Origin: Streptococcus sanguinis
GTDB lineage: Bacteria > Bacillota > Bacilli > Lactobacillales > Streptococcaceae
Length of the DNA stretch: 64,000 nt
Direction of reading: 5' to 3'
NCBI RefSeq assembly: GCF_013343115.1
Contig: NZ_CP054570.1
Span: 682,001-746,000 of the forward strand
The notes under the pieces: generated by a model
What the model was told of the DNA's origin: nothing
Seen by the model: only the letters and a program-made list of their open reading frames with translations
The model's database searches: none
Part shown: positions 15,177-64,000 of the stretch, one piece after another
Position numbering within the stretch: the stretch's first letter is position 1
How the letters are laid out: every line of letters starts with the position of its first letter
Position numbers and translations under genes: made by a program

Positions 15177-15482
15177 GTGGAACAGTTAGAACGCATTCAA
15201 AAAATGGAAAAGCACCTGAATAAATATTCTCAGGTATTGGCAAGAGCCCAGGAAGCTTTAGCTGAGCTGGAGCGCTGCCAGTCAGATTATATCCAGTTGA
15301 GGGACTACTATACTGGTCAGGAATTTTTTGATGATTTAGAATTCTCGAATGGACCGGATTTCCCTGAAAATATAGCTTGCGGCGTCTTAAGCGAAGATGC
15401 TGTCTATGACCTGATGGGGGAGCATTTTGAGACAGCGATTAATCTGTTGGATTTGTCTAGTTCCATGCTGAAAGAACGTTAA
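15177..15482 (+). CDS. DUF4298 small protein
   Basis: A 101-residue coiled-coil-rich protein. An N-terminal helix (MEQLERIQKMEKHLNKYSQV) leads to the LRDYYTGQEFFDDLE segment typical of DUF4298, then a short acidic tail. The start is GTG at 15177, preceded by AAAGGAAGG at 15162. It lies 33 bases after rexA and is probably its last co-transcribed gene. Function is unknown; the link to RexAB is positional only. Confidence 0.75.
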   Translation: MEQLERIQKMEKHLNKYSQVLARAQEALAELERCQSDYIQLRDYYTGQEFFDDLEFSNGPDFPENIACGVLSEDAVYDLMGEHFETAINLLDLSSSMLKER

Positions 15483-15526
15483 TTTATTTAGAAAGAAAAA
15501 ATAATTAATTTTTTTCAATTTTCCTC

Positions 15527-15555
15527 TTGCTTTTTAATAAAAATTCATGTAGAAT
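15527..15555 (+). promoter_or_regulatory. his operon promoter
   Basis: TTGCTT at 15527 and TAGAAT at 15550 with a 17-base spacer, immediately before the T-box leader. Transcription should begin near 15562. Confidence 0.65.
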
Positions 15556-15574
15556 ATTCAACAATAAATTGAAA

Positions 15575-15826
15575 GCGATGAGAGAAAAAGTCTAAGACAA
15601 GAAACAGAGAGTGCCTAATGGTGAGACGGCGCGCAATCCTTAGACGACACATTCTTGAGTGCGGATGCGAAATCAGTCAGCAGTCTGAGACTAGTGTCCG
15701 ACGGCTGATTGCCGTTATCAATCTGGAGTCTCGTACTCCCAGAGGGTCCTCAGGCGACTGGGGTCCGAATAAAGGTGGAACCGCGTGTCAACGTCCTTGC
15801 AAAGTTTTTTTGCGAGGGCTTTTTAT
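15575..15826 (+). promoter_or_regulatory. T-box riboswitch, histidine specifier
   Basis: The leader contains the invariant T-box element AAAGGTGGAACCGCG (15771-15785) and an overlapping terminator (15793-15825, CCTTGCAAA paired with TTTGCGAGG, then T-run). Stem I begins with GCGATGAGAG; GTCTAAG (15590-15596) pairs with CTTAGAC (15639-15645). Directly 3' is GACACA, placing CAC (15648-15650), a His codon, in the specifier position. Uncharged tRNA-His should stabilise the antiterminator and allow hisC-K expression. This leader plus the promoter fills most of the gene-free stretch 15483-15954. Confidence 0.92.
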
Positions 15827-15954
15827 TATATTTAAATTAGAAGATTCCCCTATTTTCCTTTAGCAAAGTGGTAAATTTCGTTTTTCATTTATTAGAAGTT
15901 CTAAAAGATAATCAGAATCAGATAATGGCTAGTGTGTGAAAGAGAGGTGGCAGG

Positions 15955-17013
15955 ATGGTTAAGCTAAAAGGTCTCAGGCAGATTAATCCCTATGTAGCAG
16001 GGCAGCAGCCCAATGAGCCAGACATGATTAAGCTCAATACCAATGAAAATGCTTATGGACCAAGCCCTAAGGTGGCAGAGGCCCTGCAGAACTTTGATGC
16101 CCAAGAGTTGCGCAAATATTCCAGTTTGGATCAGGCGGAGCTTTGTCAGGCTTTGGCGGCCAACTTGGGTGTATCACCCGACCAGCTCATTATCGGAAAC
16201 GGAAGTGACGACATCTTGTCCATGGCTTTTCTGGCCTTCTTTAACAGTGGCGAGTCGGTCTTATTTCCAGACTTGACCTATGGTTTTTACAAGGTCTGGG
16301 CTGACCTCTACCACGTGCCTTTTCGCGAAATCCCTCTGACAGCTGATTTTGAGGTCCATCCGTCAGATTATTTTGGAGATAATGGCGGCATTATCCTAGC
16401 TAATCCTAATGCTCCGACGGGGATTTATCTGCCGCTGGAACAGTTGGAGGAAATTCTGGCGTCCAATCAAGATGTGGTCGTGGTGGTGGACGAGGCCTAT
16501 ATTCACTTTGGTGGTCAATCTGCCCTGCCTCTTCTAGAAACCTATCCTAACCTCTTTATCACGCGGACCTTTTCCAAGGATGCGGCCTTGGCTGGTCTGC
16601 GGGTGGGCTACGGCATCGGCCATCCAGACTTAATAGCTGTCATGAAAGCTGTCAAGGACTCCATTAATCCTTACTCAGTGGATATGTTAGCAGAGCGCTT
16701 GGCTCTTGCAGCGGTGAAAGATTGGGATTATTATCTCGAGACCGGTAGAGCCATTCAAGAGACCCGAGATTGGTTTGCTGGAGAATTGGCTGCGCTGGAT
16801 TTCCAAGTTCTGCCTAGTCAGACCAACTTTGTCCTAGCCCAGCCTACTAGAATCTCTGCAGCAGAGCTTTTTCAGCAGCTAGAGGAGCTTCAGATTTATG
16901 TGCGGTATTTTCCAAAAGCAGAGCGAATCAAAGACTTTCTGCGCATCTCTATCGGACGGCGAGAGGAGATGGAAACAGTCCTGGCAGCTATCGAGGAAAT
17001 TTGCAGCAGCTGA
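15955..17013 (+). CDS. hisC: histidinol-phosphate aminotransferase
   Basis: A 352-residue fold-type I PLP enzyme converting imidazole acetol-phosphate and glutamate to histidinol-phosphate. The active-site parts are clear: ANPNAPTG near 149-156, [10 protein letters not shown] near 178-187, and [16 protein letters not shown] with the Schiff-base Lys208. It is first behind the histidine T-box, with AGAGGTGG before the ATG. First-gene position of hisC and presence of hisZ next door match other streptococcal his operons. Confidence 0.96.
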
Positions 17014-17068
17014 GAGTTTGACTCAAAGCCAGCCAGTGTAAGAATAGAGCAAGAAAGGAAAGCAGCCT

Positions 17069-18058
17069 ATGAATAAAATCACCCTTCCGATTGGCATGCA
17101 CGACAAGCTTTTCAAGAGGGCGCGTGTGACTTACGAGATTGAGCGGGACATCAGTGATTTTCTGATGGCTCAGGGCTTCAATCGGATTGACACGCCGACT
17201 TTGGAGCATTTTGAGGTCTTCAGTGACCATGTGGAACCCCATCATTATCATCTTTTCGATAAAAAAGGCGAGCTATTGGTGCTGCGGCCAGATGTAACTA
17301 GCCAGATTGGTCGGGTTATTGCTTCGACCAGGGTTCATACGCCGACTAAGTTTTCCTATTCGGGCAAGGTTTTTCACTATCAAGAAGAACTGCGCGGTCT
17401 TGCTAACGAGCTCAGTCAAGCAGGTATTGAGATTATCGGCTATCCAGCTCGCGAGGCGGTGCTTGAGGCTATCAAGACAGCCAAGCAGTCGCTGGATTTG
17501 GCGCAGGTTAAGTCTTATCAGTTTGAGTTTTCCCATGCGGCAATCTTGCAGACCATCCTAGAGAGTTTGGCCTTGGATTCGCAGGAGGAGGCCCAGCTGC
17601 TAGATTATATTCGCAAGAAAAATAGGACGGGACTCTTTGAATTCACCCAGACCAGATCGAGTGAATTTGATGATTTTTTACAAGAGCTTCCCTATCTGTT
17701 TGGTCCTAGCCAACAGGTTTTAGCTAGGGCTAGAGAGATAGTTGACAACGAGCGGATATTGATGGCTTTAGATGATGTGGAGCAAGTTTTGCGGAGCCTA
17801 TCAGGCTTGCTGGATCAGACAACCATGGACTTGGGGCAGGTAGCGGCCATGCCTTACTATACTGGCCTTACCTTCAAGGTCTTTGGCGACCGAGTGCCAG
17901 ATGCCTTTCTATCTGGTGGTCGCTATGACCAGCTTTTCAAGCGCTTCGGGGCAGCAGAGCTGACAGCTATCGGCTGGTCCCTAGACATTGACAGTGTCTA
18001 TCAGTCCATTCATGATGACCTGCCTGACGAGGGCGGAAAGGGAGGTGATGGCAGATGA
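17069..18058 (+). CDS. hisZ: ATP phosphoribosyltransferase regulatory subunit
   Basis: A 329-residue paralogue of histidyl-tRNA synthetase that partners the short HisG and gives it feedback control by histidine. The class II synthetase core is recognisable ([39 protein letters not shown]), but the protein lacks the anticodon-binding domain, so it is not HisRS. AGGAAAG precedes the ATG. The stop overlaps the hisG start by 4 bases, fitting the 1:1 complex. Confidence 0.93.
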
Positions 18059-56934: not shown

Positions 56935-57379
56935 GATTTTCTTCCTCCTCATTTGGTACTTGGATTAGGGATAAGGTCTTTTGATAGAGTTTGACCGTCT
57001 GGCAGGCTGTGGAAATAATGGGTACCACCTCTAGTTTATTGCCATTCATGTAGTCAACGAAGTCATCATAAAGCTCTCGCGAATCTGCTGATTTATGCAG
57101 CATATTTAAAGTAGCTGAGATTTCCTGGATAGAAAAGACCGTTTTTAAGGTTGTTATGGCAATCAAGCGTGCTACCTGACGACGTTGATATTTTTTCTTG
57201 ACCGGCTTGGCAATATAGCCATGCTTGACGTAGTTGTTAATCATAGAAGCGGTCAGTCCCTTGTCAGCAGCTGAAATGGAAGAGCCACAGACATTGTTTA
57301 CATAGAGCAGAACTTGGTCCAAATATAGCTCCAGTTCTGGTAATTCGTCCCACTTGGGAAAAACTTGTTGAGCGTTCAA
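56918..57379 (-). CDS. DUF1836 HTH-type regulator
   Basis: A 153-residue protein with an N-terminal MerR/Xre-like helix-turn-helix of the DUF1836 (YkrK) family: KGLTASMINNYVKHGYIAKP and KKYQRRQVARLIAITTLK. The start is TTG 57379. It overlaps the HlyIII gene, forming an operon; the same pairing is seen in other Firmicutes. A palindrome sits between its promoter and start. Confidence 0.85.
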   Translation of the reverse strand: MNAQQVFPKWDELPELELYLDQVLLYVNNVCGSSISAADKGLTASMINNYVKHGYIAKPVKKKYQRRQVARLIAITTLKTVFSIQEISATLNMLHKSADSRELYDDFVDYMNGNKLEVVPIISTACQTVKLYQKTLSLIQVPNEEEENLELRA

Positions 57380-57396
57380 ATCTTTATCACTTTCTT

Positions 57397-57417
57397 ATCT
57401 AGTCTTTATAACTAGAT
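57397..57417. promoter_or_regulatory. inverted repeat, likely operator of the DUF1836 operon
   Basis: ATCTAGT and ACTAGAT are perfect complements around ctttata. The repeat touches the -10 box of the minus-strand promoter, a position where a repressor would block transcription. Confidence 0.6.
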
Positions 57418-57444
57418 GATAACATCTCTGTAAATCAAAGTCAA
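57416..57444 (-). promoter_or_regulatory. promoter of the DUF1836-hlyIII operon
   Basis: On the minus strand TTGACT and TATCAT are separated by exactly 17 bases, about 40 bases before the TTG start. Confidence 0.65.
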
Positions 57445-57508
57445 GCAAAAAATAGAATGTCCCATTGAAATTTGATATAATCTTAAAAAGAAGAAAGGGA
57501 GGTTTCAG

Positions 57509-58093
57509 ATGAAAAAACAAATAATCTTTGATATGGCAGCCTTCCTAGGCAGTCTGATTTTTTGGTCTTGGCTCTATATGCGCTTTTTTTATGCCTATGT
57601 AGCCCTTGTCTTTTACAAGAATCAGCCAGAGTGGAACCTGCTGATACCAGCTTCTATCATCCTGACTCTGACAGCTATTAGCTCGCTTTTTATTCGCGGC
57701 CTCTATAGTCGGCACATTCCTCGTTGGCTGGTGCTAGCCAGTTACACCCTCTATTTTCTCATTCTATTCTATGCCCTCTTTTTGAAAAATATCGGCAGGC
57801 AGGGCTTCAGTCTGGACCTGCAGTCTTTTACCTATAATTGGATTTATGGAGATAAGCTGGTACCCACCATGAATATCATTATGTTCATTCCGCTGGGCTT
57901 TCTCTGCAAGCTGTCATGGAAACATGCGGCTTATTTTACCTTGGCTATCAGTCTGGTTGAGGGGAGCCAGTATCTCTTTCATCTTGGCATTTTTGACTTG
58001 GGTGATATCCTGACTAATCTGCTAGGCTTCATTATCGGCAGCTATCTACTAGAGACAGCCTTGGGTAAATGGGTTGTCCGTCATATTCACTAA
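57509..58093 (+). CDS. VanZ-like family membrane protein
   Basis: A 194-residue protein with five or six spans. The VanZ block reads MNIIMFIPLGFLCKLSW followed by SQYLFHLGIFDLGDILTN and LLGFIIGSYL. VanZ itself lowers teicoplanin susceptibility, but most family members are uncharacterised. GGGAGG precedes the ATG and TATAAT lies at 57476. Confidence 0.85.
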   Translation: MKKQIIFDMAAFLGSLIFWSWLYMRFFYAYVALVFYKNQPEWNLLIPASIILTLTAISSLFIRGLYSRHIPRWLVLASYTLYFLILFYALFLKNIGRQGFSLDLQSFTYNWIYGDKLVPTMNIIMFIPLGFLCKLSWKHAAYFTLAISLVEGSQYLFHLGIFDLGDILTNLLGFIIGSYLLETALGKWVVRHIH

Positions 58094-58109
58094 ATGAAAG
58101 AAGGAAACT

Positions 58110-58838
58110 ATGAAAATTCTTATCCCAACTGCCAAAGAGTTGAATCTAACTGCGCCATCAGCAACTCCTAATCCACTTTCAGCACAAACTCAGGCTGTGT
58201 TGGATGAGTTGGCAACCATGTCAGTAACTGACTTGGCATCATTTTATAAAATCTCCCCAGAAAGAGCGGAGGTAGAGTGGCAAGCCATTCAGGCTTTGCG
58301 AGAAGGAACTGCGCAGCATGCTCCAGCCCTTTATCTTTTTGATGGACTCATGTACCGTCATATCAAGAGACAGGACTATACCAAGGAGGAAAGTCAGTAT
58401 ATCGAGAAGTATCTTGCTATTACATCAGCGCTTTACGGTGTCATCCCAGCCCTGGAGCCCATAGCTCCCCATCGCTTGGACTTTATGATGCCACTCAAGT
58501 TAGATGGGAAGAGTTTCAAGGCATTTTGGAAAGAAGCTTATGACCAAGCTCTGGCAGAAGATGAGATGATTTTCTCCCTCCTGTCCAGCGAGTTTGAAAC
58601 AGTCTTTTCCACGGAAACCCGCCAGCGCATGATAGGTTTCAAATTTCTGGAAGACCGAGGCGGAAAGCTGAAAGTCCATTCGACCATTTCTAAAAAAGCG
58701 CGCGGTGAGTTTTTAACAGCTTTAATAACTAACCAAGTGACAGAAATCGAACAGATGAAAAAATTAAGCTTTGCTGGCTTCACCTACCGACCTGACCTGT
58801 CTAGTGAACAAGAGTTGGTTTATGTCAAGGAAGTGTGA
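58110..58838 (+). CDS. yaaA: peroxide stress protein YaaA
   Basis: A 242-residue YaaA (DUF328) protein, which in E. coli lowers intracellular iron under peroxide stress and has a DNA-binding fold. Seen: MKILIPTAKELN at the N-terminus, the YGVIPALEPIAPHRLDFMM block and the IGFKFLEDRGGKLKVHSTIS block near the end. It is 16 bases after the VanZ-like gene. Confidence 0.9.
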   Translation: MKILIPTAKELNLTAPSATPNPLSAQTQAVLDELATMSVTDLASFYKISPERAEVEWQAIQALREGTAQHAPALYLFDGLMYRHIKRQDYTKEESQYIEKYLAITSALYGVIPALEPIAPHRLDFMMPLKLDGKSFKAFWKEAYDQALAEDEMIFSLLSSEFETVFSTETRQRMIGFKFLEDRGGKLKVHSTISKKARGEFLTALITNQVTEIEQMKKLSFAGFTYRPDLSSEQELVYVKEV

Positions 58839-58879
58839 AAAGGGAAATCAATTTTTGTAATATCTACGTAATATTTTTG

Positions 58880-58888
58880 TGATAAAAT
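58880..58888 (+). promoter_or_regulatory. possible extended -10 promoter of the LXG cassette
   Basis: TGATAAAAT is a TGn-TAAAAT extended -10 at 38 bases before the first gene; no clear -35 box. Confidence 0.4.
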
Positions 58889-58926
58889 TGTTATAAAAAA
58901 TGAATTTTCTAAGGAGTTTTAGAACT

Positions 58927-59199
58927 ATGGGAAAAATCAAGTCGGATAGTATTTCCGCTCAGAATGCTATCAGTGAATTGGTTGGGGTAGATACAAGCGA
59001 CAAGCAAAATCAGCAGGTAGAGTTTAGCTATACAACAGAGATTGCTGGGATGGAAGCAGGCCGTCAGGTATGCAATCAAATGCTGCAGGCTGTCAGTGAC
59101 TTTAGCGTAGCTGTCCTGGCTCAGGCTAATAAATTTCCTGATATAGCTTATAAAATTGAAAAGCGTGATGTAGAGCAAGCGCAACGTTGGAGCAACTGA
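58927..59199 (+). CDS. DUF3130-like type VII secretion partner (Lap1-type)
   Basis: A 90-residue helical protein, sized like WXG100 proteins but without WxG. N-terminal KSDSISAQNAISELVG, a middle FSYTTEIAGMEAGRQVCNQM, and KFPDIAYKIEKRDVEQAQRW at the end resemble DUF3130 (SACOL2603-family). In other streptococci this class binds the LXG domain of the toxin encoded just downstream and forms part of its secretion signal. AAGGAG at 58911 supports ATG 58927 over 58900. It is the first gene of the cassette. Confidence 0.82.
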   Translation: MGKIKSDSISAQNAISELVGVDTSDKQNQQVEFSYTTEIAGMEAGRQVCNQMLQAVSDFSVAVLAQANKFPDIAYKIEKRDVEQAQRWSN

Positions 59200-59558
59200 T
59201 GATAAAAGATAAAAATCAAGAAAAACGTGGGCAATTACATAAGCAAATCATTCAGCTTGAGAATCAAGAAGAAGATCTTTTAGTTCTCAAAAGGCGTTAT
59301 GAAGAGAAGGTAATGGATTTTCGTACAGATATTTGGACGATGAATGCCCAAATAGAAAACTTGATAGATCCCGTATCAGAGACTAGTTCTACCAATCGTA
59401 AAATATGGGAAGAAAACCAAGCCTTGCAGCAAGCAATTGACAGCTACGTAGAGCAAGAGTTGGACAATGTTTCCAAACAAACAAGGAAAGTTCGGCAAAA
59501 ATTAGATGAAAATCGAGAAAAATTGACGAAAGAAAGGAACTCTTTACCATGGGAGTAA
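59199..59558 (+). CDS. LXG-associated helical protein (Lap2/DUF5082-type)
   Basis: A 119-residue, almost entirely coiled-coil protein (ENQEEDLLVLKRRYEEK near 25-45, VSKQTRKVRQKLDENREKLT near 93-115). Size, helical content and position between the DUF3130 gene and LXG gene match the second partner of LXG toxins. ATG overlaps the previous stop (TGATG) and the end overlaps the LXG start by 10 bases, so production is coupled. Confidence 0.75.
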   Translation: MIKDKNQEKRGQLHKQIIQLENQEEDLLVLKRRYEEKVMDFRTDIWTMNAQIENLIDPVSETSSTNRKIWEENQALQQAIDSYVEQELDNVSKQTRKVRQKLDENREKLTKERNSLPWE

Positions 59559-61183
59559 AGTACAGTGCGTCAGAGTCTTCACAGCTGATGGAGGCAATGG
59601 CTAATAATATTCGAGTGGCTAATGAGGTGACAGACCGATTATCTCAGGGATGTGATCACCTGATAGCTACCCTAGACTCTGGAGAACTCATGGGAGCAGC
59701 CTATACAGCAGGGAAAGGCCTCTTTTCAGAGATTATCATTCCTGCCATTAAGAAGCTACAGGCTGCAGTGGACGACATTCAAACGGAGTTAAATTCATAC
59801 AGAGCTGCAGATGCTCAGGTAGCTGAGTACGGAAACCTCGACCTGGATCAGCTGAAGAAGACAAAAGAGTTGAGAGAGCAGCAGCTAGCCTCTGTCAAAA
59901 AGGCTATTGAAGCAAAAGAATCATTCTTAGAGCGCATGAAGTCTATTGCTACATTTAATATCGTTTCTCACATGCAGTCTCTGGTGATTCTTTCTAGTGC
60001 AGAATCGCAAATTGAATCACAAATCAAAGAATTGGAAGAGAAGATTGAAAAGCTGGAGTTCTTTGTCGCTCAAGTCTCCCAATATTTCAGCGATAGTCTA
60101 GAAGTTCTTCGTCTAGCTATCCAAGGAGCCAGCCAGCTAAGCCAAGTCCTAGTGGATAGTGATGGAAATTACTCAGTTGATGGTGTAGATATGAGCTGGG
60201 CTATTAAAATGAAGGGACAGAAGATTGAGACATACATACCAGTAACTAAAAAAGAGAAATTTATTCAAACTATTAGACAACAGTATGGATTTAGTCGAAC
60301 TGAATCAGAGATATTACTAAATTTATATCAAAAGCTAGAAAAGGAATATGGATCCAAGAAAGCAAATATAGAATTCTTTAAAATAGTTGCATCTTACTCT
60401 TATGGTGATAAATCTTATGGAGCTTGGCAAGTGGTCGGTGGATTATATAGCCCGAATGGGGTAAACGGTATAAATGTTGGTATTAATTATAGAATGAAAT
60501 CTGTTTTGAAAAAATATGGCTTAAAAGATGATGAAATTGATACGATTCAGAAAGCTATTCAGAATCAGCATAATTTTACTAACCTAAAAAAGATTCAGGA
60601 AACAGATTCAGAAGCAGAACTTACTCAAAAACTAGATGCTGGTGCTTCAAAGGCATATGGGAAAGATGTTAGATATGCCGATTTAGATGCCAATCAAAAA
60701 TCTAGAGTAAGAGAATTACTATCTCAATTTGGAGGAACCACAGACTATTCCCATATGGCCGCAACTATTTCCGCACATTATACAGGTAATCATTTTATTG
60801 AAAATGAAGATGATTTAGCGGGATGGCAAGGTGATGTAGCTGGTACTATGGGACTTCCGCCGAGTCTTGGTAACGATGACTATCGTTCAGATTTAGATGC
60901 TGTTAATATTTACAACAAAATGAAGAATGGGGATAGCGTAGTTGATGTTACAAACTCATATTACGATAGTGTTGAGAGAACATCTGGCTATAGAGCTTAT
61001 GAATTTGTTCAAAATATTGGAGAAGGGGATTACACGAAAGGAATGAATAAATTAGAAGAAACTTATAAATTATACGTTTCTTCTCATTCTAGTGAACAAT
61101 CATCAAACTTCGAAAAATTCATGAATGCTATCCAACATTTCCAAAAGGATTTAGACAAACCCAATCCCTCTATCGGAGAGTAA
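59549..61183 (+). CDS. LXG-domain polymorphic toxin, type VII secretion effector
   Basis: A 544-residue protein. Residues 1-200 are the LXG domain: helical, with LMGAAYTAGKGLF carrying the LxG (47-49). A linker (200-230) leads to a 310-residue C-terminal domain. That domain is rich in Asp and His: Asp399 and His402 in TDYSHMAA, His410, DDLAGWQGD (421-429) and DDYRSDLDA (443-451). The pattern suggests a metal-dependent hydrolase. Whether it relates to TelC, an LXG lipid II phosphatase with an Asp-rich site, is a guess. Base composition drops to AT-rich from about 60230. Partners lie upstream and candidate immunity genes downstream. Confidence 0.88.
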   Translation: MGVKYSASESSQLMEAMANNIRVANEVTDRLSQGCDHLIATLDSGELMGAAYTAGKGLFSEIIIPAIKKLQAAVDDIQTELNSYRAADAQVAEYGNLDLDQLKKTKELREQQLASVKKAIEAKESFLERMKSIATFNIVSHMQSLVILSSAESQIESQIKELEEKIEKLEFFVAQVSQYFSDSLEVLRLAIQGASQLSQVLVDSDGNYSVDGVDMSWAIKMKGQKIETYIPVTKKEKFIQTIRQQYGFSRTESEILLNLYQKLEKEYGSKKANIEFFKIVASYSYGDKSYGAWQVVGGLYSPNGVNGINVGINYRMKSVLKKYGLKDDEIDTIQKAIQNQHNFTNLKKIQETDSEAELTQKLDAGASKAYGKDVRYADLDANQKSRVRELLSQFGGTTDYSHMAATISAHYTGNHFIENEDDLAGWQGDVAGTMGLPPSLGNDDYRSDLDAVNIYNKMKNGDSVVDVTNSYYDSVERTSGYRAYEFVQNIGEGDYTKGMNKLEETYKLYVSSHSSEQSSNFEKFMNAIQHFQKDLDKPNPSIGE

Positions 61184-61184
61184 A

Positions 61185-61817
61185 ATGTTAAAAAAAATGA
61201 AAAACTATTATAAAAACAAACCAACTCAAGCTTTCTTAATGCTCATAGTTCTTATTTGGTCAGTATACGAGATTGGTGCGACTAGTTTAGCTAACAACTC
61301 GGCCTTGACCAAGGAATTCATGCATAGTCGGTATGTTATGGTTTGGCCAATAGTAGATAGAAAGGCGAATCTATACCACTATGCGGAAGAATGGACTAAT
61401 GATGTATTAGATGGAATTATGCATCTGGACTATGAAAATATAAAAATGACTTGTTACCCTAGTAAATATGATGATCAGGTTTCCGCTGAATACAATCGGA
61501 TTCCTAATAAGGAAAATTATGCGATTTCATTTCCTTTAGACGGGTCGTTGTCCAAATCAAATTTTTCGACATTAGACACTAGATACTTTCTAATATCAAA
61601 GAATGCAGCTATTGTGGAGCAAAAGACAGGTAAGACTATTGAGGAATTAACCCATGAGATAGGGTATGCAAGGGAGGACTTCTTGTCTGCTCTTGGTAAG
61701 ATGAAAATCCTTCGTTTGGTCTATTTGATTCTTCGTATGATAGTACTGTTGCTATGTATCAGGTTGTCGGGTCAGCGGAGAAAAAGGAAAGAAGATGAAA
61801 TATTGCAGAATGGATAG
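61185..61817 (+). CDS. candidate immunity protein, two-span membrane protein
   Basis: A 210-residue protein with an N-terminal span (about 16-32), an outward domain (40-175) and a C-terminal span (about 178-198) with a basic tail. It begins 1 base after the toxin stop, the standard immunity position. An outward domain fits a toxin that acts outside the cell or in the envelope, as with TipC for TelC. No sequence family is recognised with confidence. Confidence 0.65.
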   Translation: MLKKMKNYYKNKPTQAFLMLIVLIWSVYEIGATSLANNSALTKEFMHSRYVMVWPIVDRKANLYHYAEEWTNDVLDGIMHLDYENIKMTCYPSKYDDQVSAEYNRIPNKENYAISFPLDGSLSKSNFSTLDTRYFLISKNAAIVEQKTGKTIEELTHEIGYAREDFLSALGKMKILRLVYLILRMIVLLLCIRLSGQRRKRKEDEILQNG

Positions 61818-61856
61818 AGTCCTAATATGATATGGGGTCTATAAAGGAAATAAAGA

Positions 61857-62379
61857 ATGATAACTTCAGTAATTTTTATTGCTTCTCTATTATTCCTTTT
61901 GCGCTGTTTTAAAAGTAGGCGTTCAAGGATTATTATTGGCCTGCTGTATAGTCTGTTTGTTGTCTGGTACGTTCAGGCAATTTTAAATTACGGCAAATAT
62001 ACTCTGCAATCAGGTCAAAGCGTTGAATTAAGAGTGTCTCCAAATACGGATCAGTTAGAGTATAGTTCAGAATTAATGTTAAAAAAAATTAAATGATGCT
62101 AAAATAAAATTATCAGGTACAAATGTTTGGTCTGAAAAATTTGGGGATGTATTATTTGGGGTAAGTGAAAAGAAAATTATTAAGATAGGCAGTACCGAGG
62201 GAGACAAGAATGAGCTTCCTAATAATCAAAAAGGTATTCATTTAGTAAAAGATGGGATTGTTGTTAATTATCAGGGAGAAAAAGTTTTTGACGTCACGAA
62301 TAACAAACCCTATACTATCACCATCACCAATGTAGACAACAAACCTGCTAAATTTGAAGCTCAAGTGGTGGATAGGTAA
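61857..62379 (+). pseudogene. frameshifted membrane-anchored gene, possibly second immunity gene
   Basis: The frame from ATG 61857 gives 79 residues with two hydrophobic segments (1-17, 25-44) and stops at TGA 62094. The next frame then continues without a stop from about 62089 to TAA 62379 with a well-formed globular sequence (SGTNVWSEKFGDVLFGV, KPYTITITNVDNKPAKF). The break lies in an A8 run (62081-62088); with seven A the two join into one 173-residue protein. It may be a true mutation, phase variation, or a sequencing artefact. Confidence 0.7.
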
Positions 62380-62393
62380 AGTTTAGGAAGAAT

Positions 62394-62433
<40 letters not shown>

Positions 62434-62468
62434 AGCTCTATTTTTTATTAATATGATGGTATTGAAAA

Positions 62469-63020
62469 ATGAAGAAAATGAAATCTATGGTTATCATAGG
62501 CGGCTTTCAAGGTCGAAACATCTTTTATGATGTGAAAAGAAAAAAAGTATATTCTAATAAAGTCAATGAGAGAGTTTTTCCTAATCTCAGGTGGTTAGTA
62601 ATATCCTTTGGAATTCTAGGAAATGCTTTTCTCATTCAAGTAAACAATATAAAATTTGAATCCCCTATTTTCAAAGTAATTGTTTTGTGCGCGACTCTTA
62701 TTCTTATATCTTTGGTCTGTCACTTTGGATTTAAAGATGAGTATTTAGGGCAAAACGTTGAAGTATTTAATCCCAAATTATATGAACATGTTGGTTGGTT
62801 GAATTTTTTAGAAGAAGAGAGAAACCGATTATACATTCTTCTTATTACATTTTCAGTGAGTTCTTTCTTAACTGTTTTTCAAATGAGAGAATATTTGAAC
62901 GCTCCTACCATGACAAACTTAATAGAAGTTATTGCCTTTTATTTTATATTTTATATGGCAATAACAAAAAGCAATTTTATGAAAAGAATGATGGCAATAA
63001 AGGAATTGATGAAACAATAA
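62469..63020 (+). CDS. tandem paralogous membrane protein, copy 1
   Basis: A 183-residue protein: short N-terminal strand region with GGFQGRNIFYDVKRKKVYSN, then four hydrophobic segments (about 42-58, 67-86, 120-137, 146-165). The same opening pattern recurs in the two following genes, so this is a duplicated family. Small Tyr-rich start plus membrane spans recalls the DUF443/TsaI immunity proteins linked to staphylococcal LXG toxin TspA; this is a hypothesis only. The weak ribosome site and upstream TTTC repeat suggest variable expression. Confidence 0.6.
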   Translation: MKKMKSMVIIGGFQGRNIFYDVKRKKVYSNKVNERVFPNLRWLVISFGILGNAFLIQVNNIKFESPIFKVIVLCATLILISLVCHFGFKDEYLGQNVEVFNPKLYEHVGWLNFLEEERNRLYILLITFSVSSFLTVFQMREYLNAPTMTNLIEVIAFYFIFYMAITKSNFMKRMMAIKELMKQ

Positions 63021-63061: not shown

Positions 63062-63133
63062 ATGACCAATTACTTACTGAATGGAAGTGCTATGATTATG
63101 AACCGTCGCCACTTGGAAGAAATCAATGAATAA
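63062..63133 (+). CDS. very small open frame between the paralogues
   Basis: A 23-codon frame (MTNYLLNGSAMIMNRRHLEE...) starting 20 bases after a TATAAT at 63037 and overlapping the next ATG by 8 bases. It could be a leader peptide coupling translation to copy 2, or a piece of an older gene. No ribosome site of note, so weak. Confidence 0.25.
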   Translation: MTNYLLNGSAMIMNRRHLEEINE

Positions 63134-63668
63134 GAATGTATTTTGGTTAGGTAATTTCAGAGATAAAAATATTTTTTATGATAGAAAAACTGGACAACTA
63201 TACTCTATAGATAAGAAAGAAGAGAAAGCTCCTAATCTCACTTGGGCTATTCTGCCTGCTTCCTTTCTTTTACGAAACATTTATTCAGAAGCAACAGCAC
63301 CTCAGGTTGCCAGTGTGCCTATCAGAATATTTATTTTGTGTTCGACTGTTCTCTGCGTTTTAGTTTTGATAATATTTGTTCTAAGAAATACTAGAAAAGG
63401 AACTATAAAAAGTTTTAATCAGAAACTATATTTTGACTGGCCTAATTTTCTTTATAACCAACAAACACAATGTAAAGGAATATTGTTTTTTGGGACTATA
63501 CTATTTTTTACGTCAATTAAATTTATAATTGATTATTATTTTTCAGGAAGCTTTATTTCTTTTATAGCTATCATTGGTTTTCTCCCAGTATCTGGGCTCT
63601 TATTATTTGGAAATAGGCCATTAGAAAAATTGATTATCCTTAAAAGGTTGGAAAAGCAATTGAAATGA
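63126..63668 (+). CDS. tandem paralogous membrane protein, copy 2
   Basis: A 180-residue relative of copy 1. GNFRDKNIFYDRKTGQLYSI aligns with GGFQGRNIFYDVKRKKVYSN, then KAPNLTWAILP aligns with RVFPNLRWLVI. Four hydrophobic segments follow (about 42-58, 68-88, 115-135, 140-162). Its stop overlaps the next start by 4 bases. Confidence 0.6.
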   Translation: MNKNVFWLGNFRDKNIFYDRKTGQLYSIDKKEEKAPNLTWAILPASFLLRNIYSEATAPQVASVPIRIFILCSTVLCVLVLIIFVLRNTRKGTIKSFNQKLYFDWPNFLYNQQTQCKGILFFGTILFFTSIKFIIDYYFSGSFISFIAIIGFLPVSGLLLFGNRPLEKLIILKRLEKQLK

Positions 63669-64000
63669 AGGAAAAAGAATATTTAACCTATCTCTTGACC
63701 TTTCAAGGTAGAAACTATTATTTAGATCTAAAAACTAATAAAATTTATGCAAATGTTCATAGTCCACAATTCCATCTGGATCTCACGAAATATGTTCCCG
63801 CAGCTAGCATTATGCTGCTACATGGATTTACTTCTGTTTCGAATAGCCGCTTGTCCTTCCTATGGAAAATAATCTTGTTAGTTTTGGGTTATGTTATTGT
63901 TGGGTATCTAGTAGAATTGCTTGCAAGGACAAGGAAAGAGCCGTCATTTAAAGAGTTTCACTTTGAAACACTACCTATAAAAGATGAGTTTTTATATATT
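63665..64000 (+). CDS. tandem paralogous membrane protein, copy 3 (partial, runs off the window)
   Basis: The open frame from ATG 63665 (ATGA overlap with copy 2) reads 112 residues to the edge without a stop. LTFQGRNYYLDLKTNKIYAN matches the N-terminal pattern of copies 1 and 2, and LWKIILLVLGYVIVGYLVE is a membrane span in the same place. Three copies in a row show local duplication. Confidence 0.6.
   Translation, partial: MKEKEYLTYLLTFQGRNYYLDLKTNKIYANVHSPQFHLDLTKYVPAASIMLLHGFTSVSNSRLSFLWKIILLVLGYVIVGYLVELLARTRKEPSFKEFHFETLPIKDEFLYI

Follow-up and report, generated by a model that had tools for sequence, protein, structure and literature searches.

The window analysed here is a stretch of 64,000 nucleotides from Streptococcus sanguinis (assembly GCF_013343115.1, contig NZ_CP054570.1, positions 682,001 to 746,000 of the forward strand), which carries near its end a compact row of genes with the layout of a type VIIb secretion system (T7SSb) toxin cassette: two small helical proteins (partners 1 and 2), an LXG-type toxin and a two-span membrane protein, here termed Tip1, followed by a second membrane gene, Tip2 (Table 1). 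The open reading frames (ORFs) of the stacked partners, toxin and two-span gene lie where the first-pass annotation had placed them, spaced from a 1-base gap to a 10-base overlap. The partner genes overlap by 1 base from the ATG start of partner 2 (13 bases from its TTG start), partner 2 and the toxin overlap by 10 bases, a single base separates the toxin from Tip1, and 39 bases separate Tip1 from Tip2. The same order (partner 1, partner 2, toxin, Tip1) recurs in two related loci, L010 and L011, so that the cassette is not a chance assembly; relative to these loci the partners are 93-97% identical, the toxin 93-98%, and Tip1 98% and 70%, respectively. The named relatives belong to S. sanguinis and S. 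cristatus. Upstream, the cassette is bordered by yaaA and a VanZ-like gene, and downstream by a gene on the opposite strand that we take, from its sequence, to encode a flavin mononucleotide (FMN) reductase-like protein. The annotation had closed the cassette at position 62379; the unit in fact continues through three paralogous membrane genes (M1-M3) and a DUF4176 gene to a terminator-like hairpin. A promoter scan revealed no excess of sites (26 observed versus 22.6 expected), and PADLOC returned only weak matches (best 0.0023).

Table 1. Features of the cassette and its surroundings. Positions are counted from the first base of the window, and this numbering is continued beyond position 64,000 where a feature extends past the end of the window.
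Feature	Position	Strand	Basis or remark
VanZ-like gene	57509-58093		upstream; PF04892, 1.6e-10
Partner 1, Lap1-like helical protein (DUF3130/TIGR04197-like)	58927..59199	+	ORF call; TIGR04197 score
Partner 2, Lap2-like coiled-coil protein	59187..59558 from TTG; alternative ATG at 59199	+	position as LapC2
LXG-type toxin, 544 aa; N-terminal targeting half and TelC-type toxin domain	59549..61183	+	
Exchanged cassette: toxin domain, Tip1, Tip2, repeat	60229..62457	+	blastn vs L089 (G046)
Hypervariable toxin segment, codons 345-398, alleles A vs B	60581..60742	+	
Tip1, 210 aa, two-span membrane protein, probable cognate immunity	61185..61817	+	hydropathy, allele coupling
Hypervariable Tip1 centre, codons 86-165	61440..61679	+	48-63% DNA identity to allele B
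Tip2, broken second membrane gene	61857..62379	+	ORF calls, relatives, family contexts
(TTTC)10 tract	62394..62433	+	Tandem Repeats Finder, 100% matches
M1, multi-span membrane protein, candidate leftover immunity to a glycine-zipper toxin	62469..63020	+	
M2, M1 paralogue	63126..63668	+	24% identity to M1
M3, third paralogue	63665..64210, across the window end at 64000	+	
DUF4176 gene	64242-64541, beyond the window		secretion-factor family, PF13780, 93.9 bits vs cut-off 25
Terminator-like hairpin, 12 pairs	64571-64598		after the DUF4176 gene

The C-terminal half of the toxin is, by homology, a member of the known TelC family of antibacterial toxins. Residues 207-490 aligned to TelC of S. intermedius (PDB 5ukh) at E=3.1e-17 in a phmmer search of the PDB, in which the next match lay at 0.21; the expectation of the first-pass annotation that this half carries a toxic domain and not a housekeeping fold is thereby borne out. 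The Pfam accession shown for most relatives of the toxin is PF27189. The aspartate motif of TelC (the D401 region and DDYxxDLD) is retained, and over 22 aligned rows D399 is conserved in 20, H402 and D444 in 21 each, and D429, D448 and D450 in all 22. The two rows without D399 are L031 and L013; the toxin of L013 is of another type (Ntox44), and its alignment with the others was forced. If chain residues are counted and the customary 14-residue tag is allowed for, D399 corresponds to TelC D401. The spacing of D444 and D450 would fit the aspartate pair described for the lipocone superfamily, which includes TelC and VanZ and in which a further aspartate is reported six positions past the active-site one (PMC12419801). 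A D401A variant of TelC has been used, and a figure legend in that report mentions an inactive variant (PMC6193138). TelC is reported to bind calcium through conserved aspartates, to cleave lipid II at the undecaprenyl phosphoester, and to be toxic from the cell exterior while leaving yeast unaffected (PMC5555719). It is probable, judging from this kinship, that the window toxin is a cell-wall-attacking weapon against rival bacteria. A host lipid as its target is very improbable: T7SSb effectors have been linked to hosts in some species, and lipocone relatives are described as acting on several lipids (PMC12419801), but TelC cleaves lipid II and is reported to be harmless to yeast (PMC5555719), and the immunity-like arrays at these loci imply bacterial targets.

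The N-terminal half and the two partners are less readily assigned by profile. The LXG profile PF04740 scored 24.7 bits against the toxin in the whole-genome search (cut-off 26.5) and was unlisted by hmmscan, partner 1 reached 20.5 bits against TIGR04197 (cut-off 26) and partner 2 12.9 bits against DUF3958 (cut-off 26.3), all of which counts against an LXG cassette; no credible match to either partner was found in the PDB. The corresponding families have been named Lap1 and Lap2, with an FxxxD motif in Lap1 (PMC9600955), here taken as an export motif. In the present alignment the aspartate is kept in 13/13 rows, and the phenylalanine is replaced by I or M in 6/6 rows of the window group. Because of the sub-threshold scores and this replacement, the partners are called only Lap1-like and Lap2-like. 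A stronger argument than the profile scores is that the first ~215 residues of the toxin are near-identical at the same site in two other genomes (G046 and G055), where the C-terminus is a glycine-zipper domain; the combination of a constant N-terminus with exchangeable C-terminal toxins, as read from these sequences, is a trait of LXG effectors.

The secretion apparatus, which the first-pass annotation had predicted to be distant from the cassette, does lie outside the window. A genome search for EssC found two places that match its profile, both elsewhere in the genome and one over the cut-off, at 2216847-2220698 of the 2,358,846-base contig (1770.9 bits), ~1.47 Mb from the cassette. The same locus holds a WXG100 protein (1.7e-20) and YukC (4.1e-108), presumably the equivalent of EssB; no match to the EssA profile (PF10661) was obtained in the genome.

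The boundaries of the exchangeable part were defined by comparison with the corresponding locus of G046 (L089). When positions 57000-65300 were compared with L089 by blastn (plus strand, E<=1e-8, pieces >=60), matches covered 57000-60228 and 62458-65300 only. Positions 60229-62457 are regarded as an exchanged cassette because no DNA match exists there in G046. In G046 a run of three M genes begins 33 bases behind a glycine-zipper LXG toxin, and in G055 a single M gene begins 56 bases behind one; DUF4176 follows in both. The site in G104 (L090) contains Tip1, a DUF4176 piece and a member of a third family, Tip3, with no toxin; in G062 (L088) the toxin at the site is split, and the array is long. 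Thus, the locus is a TelC-type cassette in a toxin-swap site, and it probably includes leftover immunity genes.

The gene that directly follows the toxin is the best candidate for its antidote, and the evidence lies in its allelic pattern. Two toxin alleles were distinguished: allele A, comprising the window and L010 (98.3% alike), and allele B, comprising L011 (with the identical L017) and L014 (98.5% alike). Tip1 is 97.6% identical between the A strains, 93.7% between the B strains and ~70% between the two groups. Toxin and Tip1 alleles match in 4/4 distinct pairs, two A and two B, the fifth row (L017) being equal to L011. Along the DNA, the window and allele B are 97-100% identical over toxin codons 151-330, 85% over codons 331-350 and 55-63% over codons 351-390; identity then returns to 87-98% from toxin codon 390 to Tip1 codon 85 and drops again over Tip1 codons 86-165. 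Within allele A, identity is 87-100% throughout, except for 78% in the last bases. The A strain L010 also has a B-type Tip1 farther along, and the retrieved locus contains no B toxin. Several points weigh against cognate pairing as the meaning of this pattern. A count-based test would need more than four distinct pairs, a perfect match of two A and two B alleles would arise by chance with a probability of 1/6, the toxin and Tip1 genes are linked, and in L014 the toxin lacks the LXG half and consists of the headless domain. Because the pairs are few and the genes linked, the argument from coupling rests on the two divergent segments being separated from one another. With alleles that match in pairs and diverge in two separated segments, Tip1 is probably the cognate immunity gene of the window toxin.

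Position next to a toxin would not by itself justify this assignment. In group B Streptococcus BltA and in Streptococcus gallolyticus subsp. gallolyticus TelE, the toxin-adjacent membrane gene was not protective in the reported tests, which speaks against Tip1 as the antidote and indicates that gene position alone is a poor guide to immunity. These cases would equally suit a role for Tip1 as a membrane accessory that assists folding or export, with another gene of the row conferring protection, as the third downstream gene is reported to do for TelE where the adjacent one does not, and as the failure of the gene adjacent to BltA would allow. This explanation is rather improbable, since Tip1 alleles track toxin alleles and in 8 of the 11 genomes that carry it (among 147 compared) Tip1 has no intact TelC-domain toxin immediately before it, which is expected of an immunity gene and not of an export helper.

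The known antidote of TelC is TipC, and the first immunity gene of the window is not recognisably TipC. The hhalign probability of Tip1 against TipC was 3.6%, and Tip1 gave no match to TipC2 (6dhx) in PDB sequence searches, whereas the TipC of G038 matched 6dhx at 6.3e-14. A genus-wide survey found TelC-type domains at 40 places, including 10 without a locus, among them a nearly full domain in G069. Of the resulting 30 loci, 23 from 19 genomes were counted, L035, L039, L040, L042, L043, L044 and L045 being set aside as linker-only matches or C-terminal fragments. The gene after the toxin was TipC in 18/23 loci, Tip1 in 4/23 and Tip3 in 1/23; no TipC lies directly downstream of the window toxin, where Tip1 is found instead. 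In these counts, the first ORF that either matched a family or exceeded 120 aa was taken as the next gene; two of the downstream ORFs span masked stretches, the labelling profiles were built partly from the same loci, and L014/L018 and L012/L031/L103 are each probably one record. In a tree of 20 toxin domains, built without the split toxins L027, L028 and L030, the Tip1- and Tip3-paired domains separated from the TipC-paired ones with a support of 0.984. Two loci contain both kinds of gene, Tip1-like then TipC in L019 and the reverse order in L036.

Tip1 has two hydrophobic segments, at residues 14-36 and 172-197, and in the predicted structure a small sheet (residues 61-116) lies between two membrane helices; the predicted local distance difference test score of the model rose from 43.7 to 70.3 after the distant L019/L036-type family was added (predicted template modelling score 0.67). 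No solved fold was identified for Tip1, blastp relates it only weakly to the L019 and L036 forms (1.9e-4; 25% and 21% identity), the hhalign probability against the distant L019 type was 37.7%, and neither form was reported by the genus search with Tip1 at E<=0.001.

The whole can be combined in a mechanism that we consider likely, namely a TelC-type effector of the T7SSb with Tip1 as its antidote and spare immunity genes derived from other cassettes. An antibacterial cassette would occupy a toxin-swap site between yaaA and the FMN reductase gene; the two helical partners would bind the N-terminal LXG half and deliver the toxin to EssC; and the C-terminal half would hydrolyse lipid II outside the membrane of a rival. 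Membrane-anchored Tip1 would bind toxin residues 345-398 through its variable sheet domain and block the toxin, with specificity set by matched allele pairs. Tip2 (here broken), M1-M3 and DUF4176 would probably have been inherited from cassettes of the Ntox44 and glycine-zipper types and, if intact, could provide spare immunity. A bolder form of the proposal, which we regard as possible but doubtful, holds that Tip1 is a second, unrelated TelC-type antidote, with an exchangeable centre tied to a 50-residue toxin segment just before the motif, that specificity changes by swapping these two short segments, and that the (TTTC)n tract switches the downstream glycine-zipper immunity on and off. Lipid II phosphatase toxins may have more than one family of immunity proteins, and a set of paired toxin and immunity alleles, told apart by two short segments, would amount to a testable specificity code, by which tables of both alleles could predict inhibition among oral streptococci.

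The first-pass annotation had also offered Tip2 as a second immunity gene for the toxin and had described it as frameshifted. The frameshift is confirmed, with the frame lost at an A-rich stretch after 79 codons and intact copies present in relatives; of the two candidates, the first is upheld by the allele coupling and the second is less likely to serve the same toxin, as the contexts of its family indicate. A scan for Tip2 gave 39 places in 30 loci, some of them overlapping, and 29 were scanned with the window piece itself (L135) left out. The preceding gene was an Ntox44 toxin or fragment in 6 loci (L107, L108, L109, L111, L129 and L132), Tip1 in 8, Tip3 in 10 and another gene in 5, and no other toxin type stood directly before Tip2. 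The toxin of L013 and the fragment of L018 are likewise Ntox44 (1.7e-8 and 4.2e-9). The six Ntox44 cases require a discount, because L129 was labelled by a profile built partly from it and L107 is possibly almost a duplicate of L013; this leaves L108 and L109, together with the fragments L111 and L132, as the independent cases. Tip2 looks like an Ntox44 immunity gene carried along in arrays. Against this, Tip2 follows Tip1 (8/29) oftener than Ntox44 (6/29), and in the window, G145 and G146 it stands after Tip1 behind a TelC-type toxin. Such an arrangement would also suit a single two-part immunity formed by Tip1 and Tip2, after the manner of ExiC/ExiD against EsxX, where ExiCD is reported to be protective only as a pair; the present strain, with its broken Tip2, would then be partly protected. 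We find this unlikely, given that the gene immediately before Tip2 is an Ntox44 toxin or fragment in 6/29 loci and a TelC domain in 0/23, that Tip1 occurs without an adjacent Tip2 (e.g., in G104 and G038), and that Tip2 is broken in the window genome.

The broken Tip2 and the repeat behind it, together with the split toxin of G062 and the toxin-less site of G104, might also be read as marks of a degenerating islet whose toxin is no longer secreted. Decay of this kind is quite improbable for the window, where the frames of both partners, the toxin and Tip1 are open and conserved relative to L010 and L011, the toxin motif is intact and T7SS genes are present.

The genes beyond Tip2 are probably remnants from other occupants of the toxin-swap site. 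M1-M3 have no Pfam family over the cut-off, and no DUF443 match was found by hmmscan; the M family occurs in 14/147 genomes. In 6/6 of the other mapped genomes (L097-L102; relatives in G003, G020 and G102 were not mapped), weaker relatives of M are present without a visible LXG cassette, which tells against a link to the cassette and indicates that the family extends beyond T7SS immunity. These distant relatives lie at unrelated chromosomal places, sometimes in tandem. Between Tip2 and M1, 35 bases before the start of the latter, the (TTTC)10 tract is the only place in the genome with >=5 consecutive TTTC units in a genome scan, and it is lacking in L010, L011, L014 and L017. Tetranucleotide tracts are reported to drive phase variation in several bacteria, and by analogy the tract may make part of the cassette phase-variable, which is a conjecture.

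Compared with TelC, the window toxin shares the LXG-type architecture, two helical partners, a homologous domain and the aspartate motif including the D401 place, but it is only 25-36% identical to the TipC-paired domains of the compared set and its neighbour is Tip1. Like TipC as reported for TipC2, Tip1 is membrane-anchored, encoded after a TelC toxin and divergent in its centre between conserved ends; unlike TipC, which has one N-terminal span, it has two and shows no sequence match. The G046 and G055 toxins at the same site resemble TelE and EsxX in their C-terminal glycine-zipper runs, with M-family proteins behind them, and EsxX is reported to be neutralised extracellularly by the polytopic ExiCD; in the window genome, by contrast, the site holds no glycine-zipper toxin and only M1-M3 and DUF4176. 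The layout in G046 is also similar to the telD operon of S. intermedius GC1825, described as Lap1, Lap2, an LXG toxin, two genes of the DUF443 membrane-immunity family and DUF4176 last, although M1-M3 do not match DUF443. Strings of immunity genes, some without toxins and shaped by recombination, have been reported for esaG, tipC and tsaI; here, unlike in those arrays, one site combines a stack of unrelated families with ties to three toxin types. The toxin family, T7SS immunity arrays and orphan immunity are already known from the published reports. Less usual are a partner other than TipC, the coupling between allele segments and this stacking at one fixed chromosomal site, where a T7SS effector exchanges its toxin half and immunity-like genes tied to other toxin types lie alongside. 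No title or abstract opening among the openly available papers found on TelC, LXG or type VII systems describes this cassette.

Further observations concern related genes. The VanZ-like gene and the TelC-type toxin, both assigned to the lipocone superfamily (PMC12419801), sit close to each other, which is probably a coincidence. TipC genes alternate in rows with headless C-terminal TelC fragments of ~125-180 residues in L022, L026, L039, L040, L042 and L043. The EssC locus (L007) encodes, at 15223-17823 and beside EssC, an 866-aa NADase_NGA protein (3.2e-53) that is likely a further T7SS effector. A second LXG-type toxin of the genome (L008, 7009-8640) shares the N-terminal type, ends in a distinct C-terminal part that contains glycine-zipper-like runs, and has an unrelated gene behind it; a third LXG-type protein (L009, 6269-7996; PF04740 17.4 bits by hmmscan and 21.5 in the genome search) has several small genes downstream.

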